A DNA stretch of 55,541 nucleotides from Dehalococcoidia bacterium (GTDB taxonomy: Bacteria; Chloroflexota; Dehalococcoidia; Lucifugimonadales; Lucifugimonadaceae), in the NCBI GenBank assembly GCA_022451965.1, contig JAKUNJ010000001.1, positions 1 through 55,541 of the forward strand, in the 5' to 3' direction. This document shows, piece after piece, positions 7,435 through 13,190 of this stretch. The notes beneath the pieces are model-generated. The model searched no databases, had not been told where the DNA came from, and saw only the letters and a program-made list of their open reading frames with translations. The position numbers and the translations under genes were made by a program. Positions within the stretch are counted from its first letter, which is position 1. Every line of letters begins with the position of its first letter.

Positions 7435-7511
7435 TGGCGATCCCGAGCAGATTCGAACTGCCGATCTCCTCCTTGACAGGGAGGCGTGTTAGGCCACTAC
7501 ACCACGGGACC
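7435..7511 (-). tRNA. tRNA-Asp (GTC)
   Basis: The reverse complement folds as a complete cloverleaf. The acceptor GGTCCCG pairs with CGGGATC (one G-U). The anticodon stem is CCTCC/GGAGG with loop CTGTCAA, giving anticodon GTC. The T arm is GGCAG/CTGCT with loop TTCGAAT. The discriminator is G and the CCA end is encoded (7435-7437). It lies 4 bp after the stop of the acyl-CoA dehydrogenase-like gene, on the opposite strand. Confidence 0.97.
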
Positions 7512-7625
7512 ACATCATAATAAGTCTTAATTTTAGCAGATGAATTACGAATTTAAGGTTGAAAAAGTTGAAAAAATAGTTGAAATCTTTTTGAACTAGG
7601 TTTATTTGATTAGCCTTAGATGTAT

Positions 7626-7654
7626 TTGAATAATTAGTCTGATTGATTCATAAT
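7626..7654 (+). promoter_or_regulatory. Repeat promoter, copy 1
   Basis: TTGAAT (7626-7631), a 17-bp spacer and CATAAT (7649-7654) form a near-consensus sigma-70 promoter. The 6 bp TAGTGT then lead straight into ATG 7661, placing the predicted transcription start at or next to the start codon. Spacer and hexamers are almost identical in four other intact copies (8412, 9719, 10285, 10656). Confidence 0.7.
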
Positions 7655-7660
7655 TAGTGT

Positions 7661-8377
7661 ATGAAAAAAATACTAATCTTTACTTTAATACTTATAGTTT
7701 CATGTTCACAAGCTGAGTCTATTCTTGAAAAAGAAGATTCTGAATCTGATTCAGCAAACTCCTCAAATGAACCAATAGCTTCAACAAATGATAAATTGAA
7801 ATAAATAAAAGAAAGATTAGCTAAATTAGAATCTACCATTGAAAATAATACTTTAGCTTTATCTACCATTGAAAATAATACTTTAGCTTTAGAGAACCTA
7901 TCAAAAGCTATATCTTCTTCAGGTGCAATATCAGTCGAAAACAATTCTCCTTTAGCTCTAGAAATAGATAAGTCTGATGAAGAAGATTATGGTAAATCTC
8001 CTAATAATCCTGTTAAGTCAGGCAAACCAATGAAAATTAATCTTATGGAGGATTTGTTGCTTTCGTGGGGTGAGGAAAAAATATCACATAATATATATGC
8101 AAATCCTGACGCTACAATTGAATTTGAGGGTATCGATGAAATAACAATTGATTGGAAAAAATATTCTTCCACTTTGTTTTTTAATAATTATGGTTATTTT
8201 GGTGGTGGAAATTTAAAACTTCCGGATACATTTCCTTTACAACCCAATTTCCTTGCTCTAATGAATAATAATATTTTGGAGTTCACTCATACTATTGATT
8301 GTGATGCTGGAGGATGTGATTCAATCAAAAAAATGCTTCACGGACAAACTTTTGAATTTGAGTATATCTTTAAGTGA
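7661..8377 (+). pseudogene. Lipoprotein gene interrupted by an in-frame TAA
   Basis: ATG 7661 opens a frame with a lipoprotein signal (M-K-K-I-L-I-F-T-L-I-L-I-V-S-C, C15) and an acidic Ser-rich linker. It stops at TAA 7802-7804 after 47 residues. The same frame then continues without a stop to TGA 8375-8377. That second part encodes a short coiled coil (I-K-E-R-L-A-K-L-E...), a perfectly duplicated 10-residue segment and a globular domain ending G-Q-T-F-E-F-E-Y-I-F-K. Downstream of the TAA the frame looks conserved in codon use, so this reads as one gene of about 239 codons with a single nonsense change. Internal ATG 8030 could allow a 115-residue product but would lack export signals. I do not recognise the globular domain. 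Sequencing error remains possible. Confidence 0.65.
7831..7890 (+). repeat. Perfect 30-bp tandem duplication inside the lipoprotein frame
   Basis: Positions 7831-7860 and 7861-7890 are identical. The unit is a multiple of three and encodes S-T-I-E-N-N-T-L-A-L twice in the coiled-coil part of the broken lipoprotein gene. Perfect identity suggests a recent slippage event. Confidence 0.95.
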
Positions 8378-8390
8378 AATAATTTAGATT

Positions 8391-8440
8391 GCTAACTCTG
8401 ACATCATGTATTTGAATAATTAGTCTGATTGATACATAAT
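8391..8440 (+). promoter_or_regulatory. Repeat promoter, copy 2, with upstream extension
   Basis: TTGAAT (8412-8417), a 17-bp spacer and CATAAT (8435-8440), then 6 bp to ATG 8447. Homology with copy 3 starts further upstream, at GCTAA (8391), and spans 43 bp (8391-8433 against 9259-9301) with two differences. It lies directly after the broken lipoprotein gene and would drive the membrane protein at 8496. Confidence 0.7.
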
Positions 8441-8446
8441 TTCTCT

Positions 8447-8482
8447 ATGACTAATAATATAAGTCAATTTTTAAAAATTTAA
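8447..8482 (+). CDS. Possible 11-residue leader peptide starting at the predicted +1
   Basis: ATG 8447 lies 6 bp after the -10 of promoter copy 2 and opens a frame of 11 codons (M-T-N-N-I-S-Q-F-L-K-I). Its stop TAA (8480-8482) is embedded in the Shine-Dalgarno TAAGGAG of the next gene. That geometry would suit translational coupling. It could equally be chance sequence; nothing shows it is translated. Confidence 0.3.
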   Translation: MTNNISQFLKI

Positions 8483-8495
8483 GGAGTTTATAAAT

Positions 8496-9125
8496 ATGAG
8501 TACAAAAACCTTAGGGTGGATTTTCACTATTTTTCCTATTCTTGGAATTCTTTCATGGCTAACAGCAGGTGTACCAAGTAGTCCCCCTGGTGAATTTGAA
8601 GGAGGGTACGCAGCTTTTGCAGCGGAGATTGGAAGTGTTTCAGAGAGAATACATGTAAATTTAGGTGTTGCTGCAATTGTATACTCAGTACTTATGGGTG
8701 CTTTTTTAGGACTTAGAGGTAAAATCCTAGATAATGGAAAATCAAACTTTGCATTTTTAGCTGGAATTCTTATTGCCATAGGTTTTGCTGCAACAATAGC
8801 AGAAAATGGGGCCTATTCAGCTGCTGCAAGTCTATCAAACGAAGATTTAGTTCCTGAAGCTATTTCTATGCTAACTTTAGCTAATACTGCTGGCGGATAT
8901 GGAACAGCAATATTAGCATTAGGTATTGGTCTTTTAGGTTATAGTCTCTATAAGAGTAAAACAATTCATCCAATTAGCTCATGTGCTTTTATACTAGTAG
9001 GAATATATGGAGTAATTGGTAGCATTTTATTTTATGACGAAGGATTAATAGCTGCTTATTATTTTGGACTTACACTAACAAGCATAGCTACTGGAATAGA
9101 ACTAATTAGAACAGCTAAAGATTAA
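8496..9125 (+). CDS. Multi-pass membrane protein of unknown function
   Basis: A 209-residue hydrophobic protein with about six membrane segments (near 8-26, 53-72, 82-103, 125-150, 155-175 and 180-200). It is rich in Gly and Ala and somewhat reminiscent of DUF4386-type proteins, though I cannot assign it. A clear Shine-Dalgarno (AAGGAG, 8481-8486) lies 9 bp before ATG 8496. It sits behind promoter copy 2 and a possible leader peptide, and is followed by a strong hairpin terminator. The better G+C content of its Gly/Ala codons simply reflects composition. Confidence 0.75.
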   Translation: MSTKTLGWIFTIFPILGILSWLTAGVPSSPPGEFEGGYAAFAAEIGSVSERIHVNLGVAAIVYSVLMGAFLGLRGKILDNGKSNFAFLAGILIAIGFAATIAENGAYSAAASLSNEDLVPEAISMLTLANTAGGYGTAILALGIGLLGYSLYKSKTIHPISSCAFILVGIYGVIGSILFYDEGLIAAYYFGLTLTSIATGIELIRTAKD

Positions 9126-9132
9126 GCAAGTT

Positions 9133-9164
9133 ATTCAAGGGCTGAAAAATAACAGCCCTTGAAT
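9133..9164 (+). terminator. Rho-independent-type hairpin after the membrane protein
   Basis: A perfect 12-bp stem (9133-9144 with 9153-9164; core CAAGGGCTG/CAGCCCTTG) has an 8-nt loop AAAAATAA. It starts 7 bp after the stop codon. The downstream T tract is weak, with CTTTTTA only at about 9174-9180, but the stem is strong for such AT-rich DNA. Confidence 0.75.
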
Positions 9165-9236
9165 TAATATCGACTTTTTATACTCAAAAATTTATTACTA
9201 TATTCTCTAGAAGGTTATAGTTTGGAGGAGATTAAA

Positions 9237-9263
9237 ATGGTGAAAATCTATACTTTTAGCTAA
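9237..9263 (+). pseudogene. Remnant gene start: strong RBS and 8-codon frame
   Basis: A strong Shine-Dalgarno (GGAGGAG, 9224-9230) precedes ATG 9237, but the frame ends after 8 codons (M-V-K-I-Y-T-F-S). The stop lies at the junction where homology to the promoter repeat begins (9259). This looks like the 5' end of a gene cut off by arrival or recombination of repeat copy 3. A leader peptide is the alternative. Confidence 0.35.
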
Positions 9264-9308
9264 ATCTGACATCATATATTTGAATAATTAGTCTGATTGA
9301 TTTGATTT
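9259..9308 (+). repeat. Repeat promoter, copy 3, degenerate
   Basis: It shares 43 bp (9259-9301) with copy 2 (8391-8433), including TTGAAT (9280-9285) and the conserved spacer. The -10 position reads TGATTT instead of CATAAT, so it is probably dead. It overlaps the 3' end and stop codon (9288-9290) of the minus-strand membrane protein gene, which therefore ends inside the repeat. Confidence 0.7.
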
Positions 9309-9665
9309 TCTTAACTCTGCGATGATAGTAAGAATATTAATTAATGTTGTTAATAACCAAAAGGGTATCAATATGAATGAACCCCAACCAATATGCTCAT
9401 CACCACCATCCTGCAAAGACTCAATCATTTCTGATGAATTAGTTACAAAAATTAATATATAAGCTATTGTTGGAAGGGCGAGTAATGCTGCACCTCTTTT
9501 CCCTTTCAGAAAGTATGCAAGAGCAATTAACGCCCCTATGGGAAGCACAACAATTAGAAAACCTATTCCTTCAACTGCAAAAGCTATATAAATATGAAAG
9601 ATAACAATTATTGCATTAGCAATTGCTGCATTACGTATGTCTGAAAGAAATCTTAGAATTGACAT
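9288..9665 (-). CDS. Small multi-pass membrane protein of unknown function
   Basis: 125 residues with about four hydrophobic segments (near 13-32, 34-52, 58-75 and 93-115). A Gln/Asp/Gly/Glu-rich loop lies between the third and fourth. No family is recognised. Its last codons (S-N-Q-S-D) are provided by degenerate promoter repeat copy 3, so the original C-terminus may have been altered. It is the only minus-strand gene in this part of the patch. Confidence 0.65.
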   Translation of the reverse strand: MSILRFLSDIRNAAIANAIIVIFHIYIAFAVEGIGFLIVVLPIGALIALAYFLKGKRGAALLALPTIAYILIFVTNSSEMIESLQDGGDEHIGWGSFILIPFWLLTTLINILTIIAELRKSNQSD

Positions 9666-9718
9666 ATTTTATTCCTTATAAAATGATTTTACTTTATTTT
9701 ACATAAAACAAATCTAAT

Positions 9719-9747
9719 TTGAATAGTTAGTCTGAATAATACATTAT
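9719..9747 (+). promoter_or_regulatory. Repeat promoter, copy 4
   Basis: TTGAAT (9719-9724), a 17-bp spacer with several differences from the consensus spacer, and CATTAT (9742-9747), then 6 bp to ATG 9754. Homology with copy 5 continues downstream through a mini-ORF up to the Shine-Dalgarno of the next gene (9719-9828 against 10285-10393). Confidence 0.65.
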
Positions 9748-9753
9748 TTCCAT

Positions 9754-9792
9754 ATGAAAAAATTAAACAATAAATTAATATTCGCTATATAA
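9754..9792 (+). CDS. Possible 12-residue leader peptide
   Basis: ATG 9754 stands 6 bp after the -10 of copy 4 and opens M-K-K-L-N-N-K-L-I-F-A-I, then TAA. The paralogous frame at 10320 shares M-K-K-x-N-x-K-L-I-F-A-I but runs eight residues longer. The two may be decayed signal-peptide-like starts or genuine leader peptides. Confidence 0.3.
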   Translation: MKKLNNKLIFAI

Positions 9793-9828
9793 AGTTTATA
9801 TAAAGTAAAAAACTAGTAAGGAAGAAAA

Positions 9829-10239
9829 ATGAGCTTAAAAAGAATAGGTAGCATAAAATACACCACAACACTTAGGGTATTGCCTGCACAAGACGGAAAA
9901 CCAAGGTTAGAGGTAACTGGATTCGGTGGTTCAGGGGATCTTAATGGAAACAAAGTTATTGACTCTTCATCAACTTATAATGCATGGCTTAGAAGTGATG
10001 GAAATTGGCAAGGAGAATGTCCGAATTCTGGAATTATATTTGTTGAAGATGGTATGGTCACATTTTCAGCAACAGGAATAGGAAGCCCTACAGAAGATGG
10101 AGGAAACTCATGGAAAGGGGTTACATATTTTGAAACATCCGCACCGAGTTTAGCTCAACTTAATGGAAAATGCATTGTTTACAATTGGGATGTTGACGCA
10201 CAGGGCGTTGCTGTATGGGAATTATTTGAATATTCATAA
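9829..10239 (+). CDS. Soluble protein of unknown function, 136 aa
   Basis: A Gly/Ser/Thr- and aromatic-rich protein with no signal peptide, probably all-beta. Visible stretches are T-G-F-G-G-S-G-D-L-N-G, a W-Q-G-E-C-P-N-S-G segment and a C-terminal W-D-V-D-A-Q-G-V-A-V-W-E. Alternating short strands with Gly turns recall small beta-barrel (lipocalin or allene-oxide-cyclase-like) proteins, but I cannot assign a family. The Shine-Dalgarno AAGGAAG lies 5 bp before ATG 9829. It follows promoter copy 4 with its conserved 110-bp leader. Confidence 0.7.
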   Translation: MSLKRIGSIKYTTTLRVLPAQDGKPRLEVTGFGGSGDLNGNKVIDSSSTYNAWLRSDGNWQGECPNSGIIFVEDGMVTFSATGIGSPTEDGGNSWKGVTYFETSAPSLAQLNGKCIVYNWDVDAQGVAVWELFEYS

Positions 10240-10284
10240 TTTTTTTTATGAAATAAATTACAAATGTATCATTGTGGCAGGAAT

Positions 10285-10313
10285 TTGAATAATTAGTCTG
10301 ATTGATACATAAT
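10285..10313 (+). promoter_or_regulatory. Repeat promoter, copy 5
   Basis: TTGAAT (10285-10290), the consensus spacer AATTAGTCTGATTGATA, and CATAAT (10308-10313). Then TTCCGT leads directly into ATG 10320. Hexamers and spacer are identical to copy 2. Confidence 0.7.
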
Positions 10314-10319
10314 TTCCGT

Positions 10320-10382
10320 ATGAAAAAATTTAACTATAAATTAATATTCGCTATATATAGTTTAATTCAAGTAAAAAACTAG
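10320..10382 (+). CDS. Possible 20-residue leader peptide
   Basis: ATG 10320 sits at the predicted transcription start of promoter copy 5 and encodes 20 residues with a hydrophobic centre (K-L-I-F-A-I-Y-S-L-I). Its TAG (10380-10382) touches the Shine-Dalgarno AAAGGAAG of the next gene. It is a paralogue of the 12-residue frame at 9754. Translation is not demonstrated. Confidence 0.3.
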   Translation: MKKFNYKLIFAIYSLIQVKN

Positions 10383-10393
10383 AAAGGAAGAAA

Positions 10394-10663
10394 ATGAAAT
10401 TAGTAGGAACATTCGAAGTAACAAAAGGCTACGAACATTGGAAAAAAGCTTTTTTGGCTCATGAATCAAAAAGACAAGAATGGGGAATAAGTACTGTTTT
10501 TACAGGTATGGAAGCTGAGAACAATAATAAAGTTCATGTTTGCATTGAAGTTGAATCAATGGATAAGTTACAAGAGTTTATGCAGATTCCAGATAATGCA
10601 AAAGTTATCGAAGAAGCTGGAGTAAAACTAGAAACTCAAGTAATGATTCCCATAATTGAATAA
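10394..10663 (+). CDS. Small alpha/beta-barrel-like protein of unknown function (89 aa)
   Basis: 89 residues with strands and helices in a beta-alpha-beta-beta-alpha-beta order: G-T-F-E-V, the helix at 12-27, S-T-V-F-T-G, K-V-H-V-C-I-E-V, the helix at 55-66, and the end strand V-M-I-P-I-I. This resembles ferredoxin-like dimeric barrels (ABM/DUF3764-like), which often bind small molecules or act as monooxygenases. I infer the fold only. Its last codons overlap the -35 of promoter copy 6. Confidence 0.65.
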   Translation: MKLVGTFEVTKGYEHWKKAFLAHESKRQEWGISTVFTGMEAENNNKVHVCIEVESMDKLQEFMQIPDNAKVIEEAGVKLETQVMIPIIE

Positions 10664-10684
10664 TTACTCTGATTGATTCATAAT
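10656..10684 (+). promoter_or_regulatory. Repeat promoter, copy 6, facing a convergent gene
   Basis: TTGAAT (10656-10661) overlaps the stop codon of the previous gene. A 17-bp spacer (one change in its AGTCTGATTGA core) and CATAAT (10679-10684) follow, then TTCTAT and ATG 10691. That ATG has only four codons before TGA. The next gene is on the minus strand, so a transcript from here would run antisense into the 3' end of the PstS-like gene. Confidence 0.65.
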
Positions 10685-10697
10685 TTCTATATGAAAT

Positions 10698-12035
10698 CTA
10701 ATTGATATTCCCAGCATCTTTTTCAATTTGGTTCCAAAAATCATCATAATCCAGCTGTGAATATGGATGATAGGCTGGTTCACCGTTAGTAATAAATTCT
10801 TCTGCTGTAATAGTTATTTCTGTAGCATTATTAAGATAATATTCTAAAAAATCATATGTTAATTTATCTGCTACATCATGATTTACATATAAAACTCTTT
10901 GCCACATAAATGGTAACCCTGAATCAGGATTAGATGTATTTTTATAATTTACTTCTTTACAATCCATTGGGTTCCCATTCATATCCCAATTATGTGTAAG
11001 ATCAATTGCCTTGACCATTGGATTTACTTTTGCACTATCTATAAATCCAAAACCTCCGAATAGTTGATTTACAGCAGATATTATTTCAGTATCATTTTGC
11101 TTTTCTACTATTCGTCTTAGATTTTTTGATTGCATATCTCCTGTATGCATATCTCTTACGAAATAATCAGAAATTATAGAATCTAATTTATGCCCAAAAA
11201 ATTGAATTTGTGAAGATGATAATCTTTGCTCTATCTGATTCCAACTATAAAAATTCGATCCTTCAATCCATATCTGAGATAATTTTTTTCGAGTTAAGCA
11301 TTCTAGATTGTTATTTCTATTTACTATAAATGCAATACCAAAATAACTTATAGGTATCTGAGTATAATTTATACCTTCTGCATCCAGTTGATTAAATTCT
11401 CTATCATGCCACTTAGATGAGGCCATTGCTATTTGAATTTCACCATCTAAGAACTTTTCAAATGCTTTATCTTGACCTGTTTGAGTTATCTCAATGTCGT
11501 TATCATTTAAGTTTTTATAAGTATAGTTTTTTAGGGCTTGATTTATATAAGGATAGACCGAATCAGATCCCTCGATTCTTAAGTTGTTTCTATTTAGAAA
11601 AGTATTATTTGGAAATGCTTCTTTAGCCTCTTTTATTTCTTTTTCTGATGAAATAATTAGTGGCATTTCCTCTGAGCTTTTTTCAATATTTGGAGTTTCA
11701 TATTGGATTCTAAGATTATTCAAGCTCATTTGTAAGAGTAAATTTTCTTCCTTGAGGTTATCATTCTTTTCTATTAATTCATTAAGCTGATTTTTTGTTA
11801 TTAGAAGCTCATCACTAAGGTTATTTAGATTTTCATTGAGATTAGATTCATTTTGAATATATGATTCAATCATTTTTTCATGTTGAGAAAAAGTTTCTGA
11901 TAGATCAGATATATCATCTTTATTTGAATTTATGGATTCGTTGGAGCTAGTACTACTAATGTCAATTTCTGAGCTTTCTTCAGTTGAGCAGGCAAGTAAA
12001 AATATAAAAGTAAGAATTAGTAGATATTTTTTCAT
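10698..12035 (-). CDS. PstS-like substrate-binding lipoprotein with coiled-coil tether
   Basis: The 445 residues begin with a lipoprotein signal ending L-L-A-C (C16). An acidic Ser/Asn linker follows, then a predicted coiled coil (about 50-115, with heptad-like L/I/N-E-N-L repeats). A PstS-type periplasmic-binding domain starts near 150 with R-I-E-G-S-D-S-V-Y-P and includes the family-like I-A-M-A-S-S-K and Q-I-W-I-E-G segments. PstS proteins capture phosphate for an ABC transporter, but no pstCAB genes are present. The long coiled coil between anchor and binding domain is unusual; the protein may be a sensor or scaffold instead. It is divergent from the acyltransferase gene across 39 bp. Confidence 0.75.
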   Translation of the reverse strand: MKKYLLILTFIFLLACSTEESSEIDISSTSSNESINSNKDDISDLSETFSQHEKMIESYIQNESNLNENLNNLSDELLITKNQLNELIEKNDNLKEENLLLQMSLNNLRIQYETPNIEKSSEEMPLIISSEKEIKEAKEAFPNNTFLNRNNLRIEGSDSVYPYINQALKNYTYKNLNDNDIEITQTGQDKAFEKFLDGEIQIAMASSKWHDREFNQLDAEGINYTQIPISYFGIAFIVNRNNNLECLTRKKLSQIWIEGSNFYSWNQIEQRLSSSQIQFFGHKLDSIISDYFVRDMHTGDMQSKNLRRIVEKQNDTEIISAVNQLFGGFGFIDSAKVNPMVKAIDLTHNWDMNGNPMDCKEVNYKNTSNPDSGLPFMWQRVLYVNHDVADKLTYDFLEYYLNNATEITITAEEFITNGEPAYHPYSQLDYDDFWNQIEKDAGNIN

Positions 12036-12045
12036 TTAGAATTTA

Positions 12046-12068
12046 GATTGATACATAAATAATATAAT
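12046..12068 (+). promoter_or_regulatory. Promoter region of the acyltransferase gene, partial repeat
   Basis: The 39-bp divergent gap contains GATTGATACATAAAT (12047-12061), which matches the 3' half of the promoter repeat. TATAAT (12063-12068) follows, and 6 bp later comes ATG 12075, the same -10/start spacing as in the repeat copies. No convincing -35 is visible. Confidence 0.45.
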
Positions 12069-12074
12069 TAATTT

Positions 12075-13190
12075 ATGAAACTTGAAAGATTACATTATCT
12101 TGATGCTCTAAGAGCATTTGCTATGTACTTAGGCATAGTTCTTCATGTTTGTATACCTATACTACCATGGTACGAAGATTATGAAATGAAGGAAATTTAT
12201 AGCATTATTTTATTGTTAATCCATGGATTTAGAATGCCGCTATTCATGCTTCTTAGTGGATTCTTTGCACAAATGATAATAAATAGGTATGGATTAATCA
12301 AATTTATAGATAACAGATTAAGAAGAATAGGATTGCCATACTTAGTATTTGTTCCATTAATTACTATTCTATTTATATTTACATTTTTCTTAGGAAATAT
12401 TTTTGTTAATTGGGATTCAGTAAATCTTACGAATGAGATAAAAGAATTAGAAGATAATGACGAGTTTAGTCATGGACATCTATGGTTTATGTATTTTTTA
12501 ATAATTTTCACTTTTCTTTATTCCTTTCTAATTTATATATCTAAAAAGACTAATATAAGAATAAATATAAATTATTCATTATTGGCAATGATGCCAATGA
12601 TTCTAATTTTTTTAATTTTTCAACCAGAAGAAATAATATCTAGGCCAGCAACTGATGTAAGTTTTTTTCCCCACTGGTCAATATTAGGATATTATTTTGG
12701 ATTTTTTTTATTTGGAGCATTATTTTTTAAGCTTGAAAATAACGGATTAAGCTTAATAAGAAGCTTTTCAGAAAAACAGAAATTATTTTATTGGATACCT
12801 GTTGTTTCCTTTATAGTTTGCCTAATTATTTCAGAAAACAAAGTTTATTTGTTAGGAGAAATATTTAATTTTATTTATACTTGGAGTTCAATATTTGTTT
12901 TGGTTCTTATTGCCTATAAACTCATAAATCGTCATCATAATAAGATAAGATATTTATCTGACGCTTCGTACTATATATACATAATTCATATTCCTTTTGT
13001 AATTTTATTTCAAGGAATATTTTCTCGCTTAGAAATCTATCACTTTATAAAATTTTTACTGATTATATCTTTTGTGACAATTTTTTCTTTAATTAGTTAT
13101 CATTATTTTGTTAGAAATACATTTATAGGAACTCTACTAAATGGTAAAAAATCAAATGAGCAAATAAGTGCTTATGAAAAAGAAATTTAA
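12075..13190 (+). CDS. Acyltransferase family 3 integral membrane protein
   Basis: The 371-residue polytopic protein begins L-H-Y-L-D-A-L-R-A-F-A-M, followed by G-I-V-L-H-V, where the histidine matches the family's conserved site. It continues with about ten membrane helices and H-L-W-F-M-Y-F-L near residue 136, typical of acyltransferase-3/OpgC-like enzymes. These O-acylate surface glycans or glucans using cytoplasmic acyl-CoA. There is no Shine-Dalgarno, and ATG lies 6 bp after TATAAT, so a leaderless transcript is likely. Neighbouring glycan genes are absent, so the acceptor is unknown. Confidence 0.85.
   Translation: MKLERLHYLDALRAFAMYLGIVLHVCIPILPWYEDYEMKEIYSIILLLIHGFRMPLFMLLSGFFAQMIINRYGLIKFIDNRLRRIGLPYLVFVPLITILFIFTFFLGNIFVNWDSVNLTNEIKELEDNDEFSHGHLWFMYFLIIFTFLYSFLIYISKKTNIRININYSLLAMMPMILIFLIFQPEEIISRPATDVSFFPHWSILGYYFGFFLFGALFFKLENNGLSLIRSFSEKQKLFYWIPVVSFIVCLIISENKVYLLGEIFNFIYTWSSIFVLVLIAYKLINRHHNKIRYLSDASYYIYIIHIPFVILFQGIFSRLEIYHFIKFLLIISFVTIFSLISYHYFVRNTFIGTLLNGKKSNEQISAYEKEI

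Follow-up and report, generated by a model that had tools for sequence, protein, structure and literature searches.

Integrons are the main known means for bacteria to store up individual genes in the form of exchangeable cassettes. The consensus of integron sites is GTTRRRY. How cassettes originate from plain genes is, to our knowledge, poorly understood. In marine bacteria with small genomes, tycheposons hold hypervariable cargo adjoining tRNA genes; such tRNA islands are defined by a tyrosine recombinase within the element and a direct repeat of the tRNA 3' end. Acinetobacter plasmids carry pdif modules, single genes between 28-bp sites, and the dif or pdif site consists of two 11-bp arms with an inner palindrome around a 6-bp centre (PMC6449649). 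Integrons also occur in Chloroflexota (PMC8618304).

We analysed a window of 55,541 nucleotides (contig JAKUNJ010000001.1, assembly GCA_022451965.1) from a Dehalococcoidia bacterium of the family Lucifugimonadaceae. Genomes of this lineage measure about 1.3 Mb and belong to small-genome Chloroflexota from marine MAGs. All genomes compared here are assemblies, mostly fragmented, and one (G001) contains many N.

A conserved 30-bp repeat and the arrays it forms

One strand of the window carries six copies of a 30-bp core, TTTGAATAATTAGTCTGATTGATTCATAAT, between positions 7625 and 10684, far more than chance would place there. The original prediction of TTGAAT, a 17-bp spacer and CATAAT at five positions held up: both hexamers are exact at 7626, 8412, 10285 and 10656, the copy at 9719 has one hexamer change (CATTAT), and the copy at 9280 is degenerate in its right part. 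The spacer is conserved beyond chance, as had been proposed, with four matches to AATTAGTCTGATTGATACATAAT against 0.00 expected; the hexamer pair alone is not significant (31 matches at up to 2 mismatches versus 29.8 expected). A weight matrix of the core, applied at a threshold of 12 bits, recovered all six copies and none of 569,480 positions of reversed control sequence. A partial copy previously placed at 12047 fell below the threshold and was left out of the counts. Frequently (for example at 8411 and 9279) an upstream extension of about 20 bp, GCTAAYTCTGACATCATGTA, lengthens the repeat to about 50–65 bp.

The core extends beyond the patch to which it had first been assigned, and is restricted to few genera. 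Searching the whole genome gave five forward matches and no control match, and a second array lies on another contig, C9. With about 10 sites in 1.25 Mb, the core is no generic promoter of this genome. Extending the search to relatives, as had been suggested, found it in all nine genomes of the genus and in one other among 250 genomes of the order (2 of 97 genera). The exact 22-bp core had no match among 2.9 million viral contigs, and an Rfam scan returned nothing over threshold except tRNA. We rejected one Clostridiales match (L006) as a chance 19-bp match within unrelated sequence.

Copies lie mostly in tandem arrays adjoining tRNA genes (Table 1). Between them stand mostly single small genes, rarely two, on either strand. 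The sites are all co-oriented within each array of at least two copies, and those in tRNA-adjoining arrays point away from the tRNA. The tRNA-Asp gene, identified with ARAGORN, flanks the array in five genomes of the genus. In relatives the leader repeat beside it reads GTTGGATAA and is present in 3–5 copies. Genus-wide, this pattern occurs only on the tRNA-Asp or tRNA-Ala side of arrays (9 matches in 6 genomes versus 1 control match), adjoining these tRNA genes in six of the nine genomes.

Table 1. Features of the array and its flanks in the window
Feature	Position	Strand	Evidence or remarks
tRNA-Asp(GTC), fixed array flank	7435..7511	-	ARAGORN; Rfam tRNA 62.4 bits
Leader direct repeats GTTGAAAAA GTTGAAAAAATA GTTGAAAT	7558..7586	+	genus-wide pattern search
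Site 1 (joint 1)	7625..7654	+	49.1 bits, weight matrix
Cassette 1, lipoprotein, apparently broken	7661..8377	+	short ORF from ATG 7661, then ORF 8030-8377
Site 2	8411..8440	+	47.2 bits; upstream tail GCTAACTCTGACATCATGTA at 8391-8410
Cassette 2, protein of 209 aa, no Pfam match	8496..9125	+	G006 has a 92.9% identical cassette
Site 3, right half degenerate	9279..9308	+	17.1 bits
Cassette 3, 125-aa protein, opposite strand	9288..9665	-	92.4% identical in G004, other neighbours there
Site 4	9718..9747	+	34.2 bits
Cassette 4, 136-aa protein, without Pfam match	9829..10239	+	Pfam search
Site 5	10284..10313	+	47.2 bits
Cassette 5, DUF3764 protein	10394..10663	+	stop codon (GAA TAA) inside site 6
Site 6	10655..10684	+	43.7 bits
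Cassette 6, PBP-like lipoprotein, opposite strand	10698..12035	-	90% identical in G006, different upstream cassette there
Acyltransferase (Acyl_transf_3), fixed far array flank	12075..13190	+	in G000, G002, G004, G006, G007

The genes between cores are mobile cassettes

The genomes compared show cassette structure, mobility, a precise one-cassette difference and restriction to the genus. The same cassettes stand between different neighbours in different genomes. Their identity is 89–97%, against 68–79% for the housekeeping Xer loci in each of these pairs of genomes: 97.3% versus 69.4% for a 76-aa cassette, 92.4% versus 71.0% for the 125-aa, 94.6% versus 79.2% for a 34-aa, 91.3% versus 72.9% for an 84-aa, 89.3% versus 68.7% for ppnP and 92.9% versus 79.0% for the 209-aa cassette. 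The DUF3764 gene plus its site has a 93.1% identical counterpart in another genus (G032). Cassette 1 is related to a lipoprotein of 229 aa in G008, and matches L050 at 70% over 193 bp.

One pair of sister genomes, G008 and G005 (93.6% identical), shows a precise difference at the first site, namely a single 359-bp cassette: G008 reads leader, site, lipoprotein, and G005 reads leader, site, 76-aa cassette, site, lipoprotein, with an identical right flank (37/37). A second comparison comes from the tRNA-Ala locus, where the leader of G006 runs uninterrupted through GTTGGATAATTAG|TTGGATAGC and the 49-aa cassette of the genome under study (G000) ends exactly at ...TTTGAATAATTAG|TTGGATAGC; the left flank of this pair is unclean, with about 50 bp extra in G000. 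The original prediction of unrelated flanking genes is borne out, and gene content differs between genomes. Its proposal of a duplicating promoter cassette was right that something moves, but what moves is the gene that two copies enclose rather than the promoter alone.

Exchange takes place inside the core. Sequence to the left of a joint, the tail, goes with the upstream gene and sequence to the right, the leader, goes with the downstream gene, which places the exchange within the core; breakpoints fall in these 30 bp also at joints with unrelated tails and leaders. Among the site-bearing contigs of G001–G008, 11 of 17 have a site within about 320 bp of a contig end, as would be expected if arrays vary within populations. 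A cassette array would explain both the gene-content differences between close relatives and the assembly breaks at this locus.

Promoter geometry and a model of the joint

The core has the layout of a promoter, as had been predicted. It combines TTGAAT-17-CATAAT with a downstream start codon, as in a sigma-70 promoter, and the ATG lies exactly 6 bp past CATAAT in 18 of 37 copies, any other offset being used by at most three. This geometry fits a leaderless promoter put together across the joint, with promoter activity suggested by the layout. Enrichment of leaderless promoters genome-wide in this organism is weak and uninformative (72 genes).

The repeats had also been read as a local regulon, in which duplication spread a sigma-70-like promoter whose spacer holds an operator, and this promoter controls local genes. 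The promoter geometry and the fixed ATG distance fit this, as do the adjacent cassettes at 9718 and 10284, which share a 5' leader of about 80–90 bp ahead of unrelated genes. But the core also occurs in half-copies, at the ends of arrays and before genes on the opposite strand. The module 5' of the core stays with the upstream gene rather than the gene it would regulate. With gene content that is unrelated and varies between genomes, we regard a regulon as highly improbable.

On balance, we instead read the repeat as the recombination joint of a chromosomal, integron-like gene-cassette array built on a previously undescribed site, at which Xer or a trans-acting enzyme would act. Each cassette would comprise one small gene, rarely two, with a right half-site, TTAGTCTGATTGATTCATAATT, at its start and a left half-site, often GCTAAYTCTGACATCATGTA followed by TTTGAATAA, at its end. 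The full site of about 30 bp would be rebuilt wherever one cassette is joined to another or to the leader, with the exchange point probably around GAATAA/TTAGT. New cassettes would enter chiefly next to the leader, whose 3–5 direct repeats beside tRNA-Asp or tRNA-Ala resemble an integron attI in layout. The upstream cassette would contribute the -35 element TTGAAT, and the downstream cassette the -10 element CATAAT and the ATG, of a leaderless sigma-70-type promoter. Given this promoter geometry, a gene captured in the matching orientation would be expressed immediately.

Candidate recombinases and competing explanations

No dedicated recombinase lies in or near any mapped array, and neither serine recombinases nor Y1 transposases were found in the nine genomes. 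Eight genomes of the genus have two tyrosine recombinases each, and G007 has four matches, individually unscanned; in nearly all, the only ones are XerC- and XerD-like. G000 encodes just two, both of the housekeeping XerC/XerD type. The joint would most likely be recombined by a tyrosine recombinase, either host XerC/XerD or one supplied in trans.

As a special case of the integron-like array, the site may be a variant dif at which XerC and XerD move cassettes, as in the single-gene pdif modules of Acinetobacter plasmids (PMC6449649). The near-exclusive presence of XerC/XerD fits, as does a core of about 28–30 bp with 7 of 9 positions matching between its arms TTTGAATAA and TATGAATCA (8 of 11 for dif-style 11-bp arms). 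However, this symmetry is not significant (2,254 of 20,000 shuffles were equally good), the core has no match to the dif consensus, and the sites are all co-oriented rather than in inverted pairs. The search for a chromosomal dif to compare it with was negative: a consensus pattern gave 15 matches in G000 versus 12 in the control, and two candidates were discarded as not conserved in the genus. We hold the dif reading to be possible but doubtful.

The architecture also matches an integron remnant, or CALIN, whose sites would be attC sites that have diverged strongly and on which an integron integrase acts in trans. Chloroflexota include integron carriers (PMC8618304), the leader repeats contain GTTGGAT, which fits GTTRRRY, and one array-end joint reads G|TTGGAT. 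Against this, the core contains no R box (RYYYAAC/GTTRRRY), neither of its strands folds better than shuffled sequence (z -0.1 to 1.2), and the two tyrosine recombinases of G000 score 124 and 128 bits on the IntI model TIGR02249, versus a cut-off of 265. We consider a CALIN very unlikely.

Alternatively, the repeats could be shared homology only, with RecA-type recombination or microhomology between promoter copies doing without a dedicated recombinase. None was found, and flanks of 30–50 bp in common could allow rare RecA exchange with similar products. Some joints also resemble microhomology: GATGAATAA, the native end of ppnP in G001, has become a site in G008. Homology alone is nonetheless unlikely, if less so than a CALIN, given breakpoints in the core despite unrelated tails and leaders, perfect co-orientation, cores kept at opposite-strand boundaries and specific leader repeats on the tRNA side.

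The integron-like array may even represent a separate class of cassette capture, which we propose tentatively. Its site would be a split leaderless promoter rebuilt with each insertion, capture could occur at stop codons that look like the left half-site (GAA TAA), and housekeeping Xer or an unknown enzyme, rather than an integron integrase, would supply the activity. The site is short enough to occur partially by chance at gene ends; cases like ppnP and DUF3764, which have their stop codons within it, would allow cassette birth to be tested directly. A lineage without integron integrase seems to have an integron equivalent with a promoter built into the joint. We found no description of cassette arrays in Chloroflexota/SAR202 in a literature search to which subscription journals and preprints were mostly external.

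The array shares features with three known systems and departs from each. Like integrons and CALINs, it comprises tandem, mostly single-gene cassettes with one co-oriented site each, exchanged between species, and a fixed leader with direct repeats; gain would likewise fall next to the leader. Unlike them, it has no IntI in or near it and many opposite-strand cassette genes; its site of about 30 bp is nearly fixed in sequence, lacks an attC fold and GTTRRRY, and itself carries promoter elements, and its leader adjoins a tRNA gene. With Acinetobacter pdif modules it shares sites of about 28–30 bp around single genes, with XerC/XerD at hand, but it is chromosomal, tandem, in one orientation and not dif-like, has leader repeats, and in the data seen is not carried by plasmids. 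Tycheposons and tRNA-targeted islands likewise place variable cargo beside tRNA genes in marine small-genome hosts, whereas here the tRNA is intact, neither split nor duplicated as a fragment in the array, the arrays yielded no integrase, and each unit is a single-gene cassette that carries a site of its own.

The core repeat and its arrays

The window carries a 30-bp core, consensus TTTGAATAATTAGTCTGATTGATTCATAAT, in six co-oriented copies. These are the copies that the original prediction had placed at 7626-10684; a partial copy proposed at 12047 scored below threshold. The predicted conservation of the spacer holds: it lies far beyond chance, whereas the bare hexamer pair matches 31 times in AT-rich DNA against 29.8 expected. 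In a weight-matrix control, no position of the reversed sequence reached 12 bits or more. About half of the genus copies share a further stretch of ~20 bp upstream, GCTAAYTCTGACATCATGTA.

Features and their coordinates (window unless a genome, contig or locus is named)
Feature	Location	Observation
Core copy	7625	core search
Core copy	8411	core search
Core copy	9279	core search; degenerate
Core copy	9718	core search
Core copy	10284	core search
Core copy	10655	core search
First cassette	7661-8377	resembles a disrupted version of the 229-aa lipoprotein that G008 carries intact (L050)
Common 5' leader	9748-9831	
Common 5' leader	10314-10396	
tRNA-Ala-leader-like stretch	G000:C9:24250-24328 (L055 around 14250)	no tRNA; 77% identity to leader query
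panB + panC	G000, L055:12575-14175	array edge
panB + panC	G001, L040:748-2353	array edge
DUF3764 cassette	G032, L155:9752-10097	site after, weak site before; different chromosomal context

Arrays extend beyond this patch. The proposed search for outside copies turned up one further array in the window's own genome (G000, 1.25 Mb, 97.8% complete), on contig C9. All nine genomes of the genus carry the core; across the order (250 genomes, 97 genera, up to two mismatches), it occurs outside the genus only in G032, from another genus. Two relatives with names, Chloroflexi bacterium TMED70 and Dehalococcoidia bacterium SAT203, are MAGs. A viral collection held no exact match to the central 22 bases, TTGAATAATTAGTCTGATTGAT, and an open-access literature library yielded no description of such arrays in this group.

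Arrays with a visible start adjoin a tRNA gene: tRNA-Asp in G000 (window), G001, G003, G005 and G008, tRNA-Ala in G000, tRNA-Lys in G008 and tRNA-Gly in G005. Next to some single-site or short arrays, no tRNA is visible. On the tRNA-Asp and tRNA-Ala sides, a leader ahead of the first site repeats GTTGGATAA, or a variant of it, three to five times in direct orientation at 8-12 bp spacing; a pattern search of the nine genomes confined the triple repeat to these leaders, with one match in the control. Sites within an array share one orientation, directed away from an adjoining tRNA. Between sites lies mostly one small gene, on either strand, with products including lipoproteins, small membrane or unknown proteins, nucleoside phosphorylase PpnP, cytochrome c, P-loop kinases, DUF3764 and an NAD(P)-binding protein. 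The far end is the same acyltransferase in five genomes, preceded by differing cassettes. The edge genes panB and panC (named from translations) are only ~70% identical between G000 and G001, whose Xer loci are 78.6% identical.

Cassette exchange

Cassettes of the same type have differing neighbours across genomes. They are 89-97% identical, whereas the Xer loci in those genome pairs reach 68-79%; the 76-aa cassette (named by protein size) reaches 97.3% across 329 bp in the comparison of G002 with G005, against 69.4% for Xer. DUF3764, taken together with the site 3' of it, shows 93% identity to the copy in G032. At tRNA-Asp, G005 and G008 (93.6% identical) differ, within the stretch covered by both, by exactly one cassette, a 359-bp unit adjoining the leader in G005. 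The left flank in G008 is that of G005 site 1, with small indels among leader repeats, and its right flank is that of site 2 (37/37). At tRNA-Ala, G006 reads GTTGGATAATTAG straight into TTGGATAGC; G000 has a 49-aa cassette ending TTTGAATAATTAG before TTGGATAGC, with a less clean left side (~50 extra bases).

Sites also lie within ~320 bp of a contig end in 11 of the 17 site-bearing contigs of G001-G008, with fewer than one expected by hand estimate from contig sizes. A 30-50-bp repeat alone seldom breaks an assembly, so these sites hint at variation inside populations.

To the left of the core, sequence tracks the gene upstream in the 76-aa, DUF3764 and 125-aa cassettes; to its right, sequence tracks the gene downstream in the case of the 209-aa, 34-aa, PBP, lipoprotein and 84-aa cassettes. 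Breakpoints therefore fall within the core. At array ends, half-copies retain the left half plus TTAGT, the right half being the target's own. The core's GAA TAA is the stop codon of DUF3764 and of PpnP in G008. The G001 PpnP gene has the same end, GATGAATAA, without a site, and this single pair points to a possible capture of gene ends that look like the left half-site.

Promoter geometry

TTGAAT-17-CATAAT has sigma-70 geometry. Among the 37 high-scoring copies whose downstream sequence is available, ATG follows CATAAT by exactly 6 bp in 18; any other offset occurs in at most three. Judged from this distance, transcripts would start at the ATG, making the putative promoter leaderless; genome-wide, evidence for leaderless promoters is weak. 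The upstream cassette would supply the -35, and the downstream cassette the -10 and start codon. Two adjacent cassettes with unrelated genes have in common an ~80-90 bp 5' leader, in which a short ORF (MKKLNNKLIFAI / MKKFNYKLIFAIYSLIQVKN) precedes an AAGGAAGA ribosome site. This stretch may represent a leader peptide or a reused 5' module.

Recombination mechanism and known systems

The array is most likely a site-specific recombination array driven by a tyrosine recombinase, either Xer or an enzyme acting in trans. No integron integrase, serine recombinase or Y1 transposase could be recognised in genomes of the genus. Two tyrosine recombinases are present, one beside topA and the other beside uvrC/lgt/recJ (neighbours named from translations); their best models are XerC and XerD, at scores below strict cut-offs. 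The core has the size of a Xer site, its symmetry is not significant and it lacks the dif consensus; a search for a dif to compare with it found none. Since Xer action is itself one version of the favoured explanation, the likelihood given to that explanation overlaps with the one given to Xer as a rival. The main rival to site-specific recombination is exchange by RecA. Separately, G007 has four tyrosine recombinase matches (L063, L072, L079, L080) against two in the others; the extra matches may be contamination or an additional enzyme.

Two known systems invite comparison. pdif modules are defined by a dif-like palindrome, which tests did not detect in the core. Integrons share the array layout, but their defining features, IntI and the attC fold, were looked for and not found in the array genomes and in the core, respectively. 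The array seems to work like an integron, yet need not be one.
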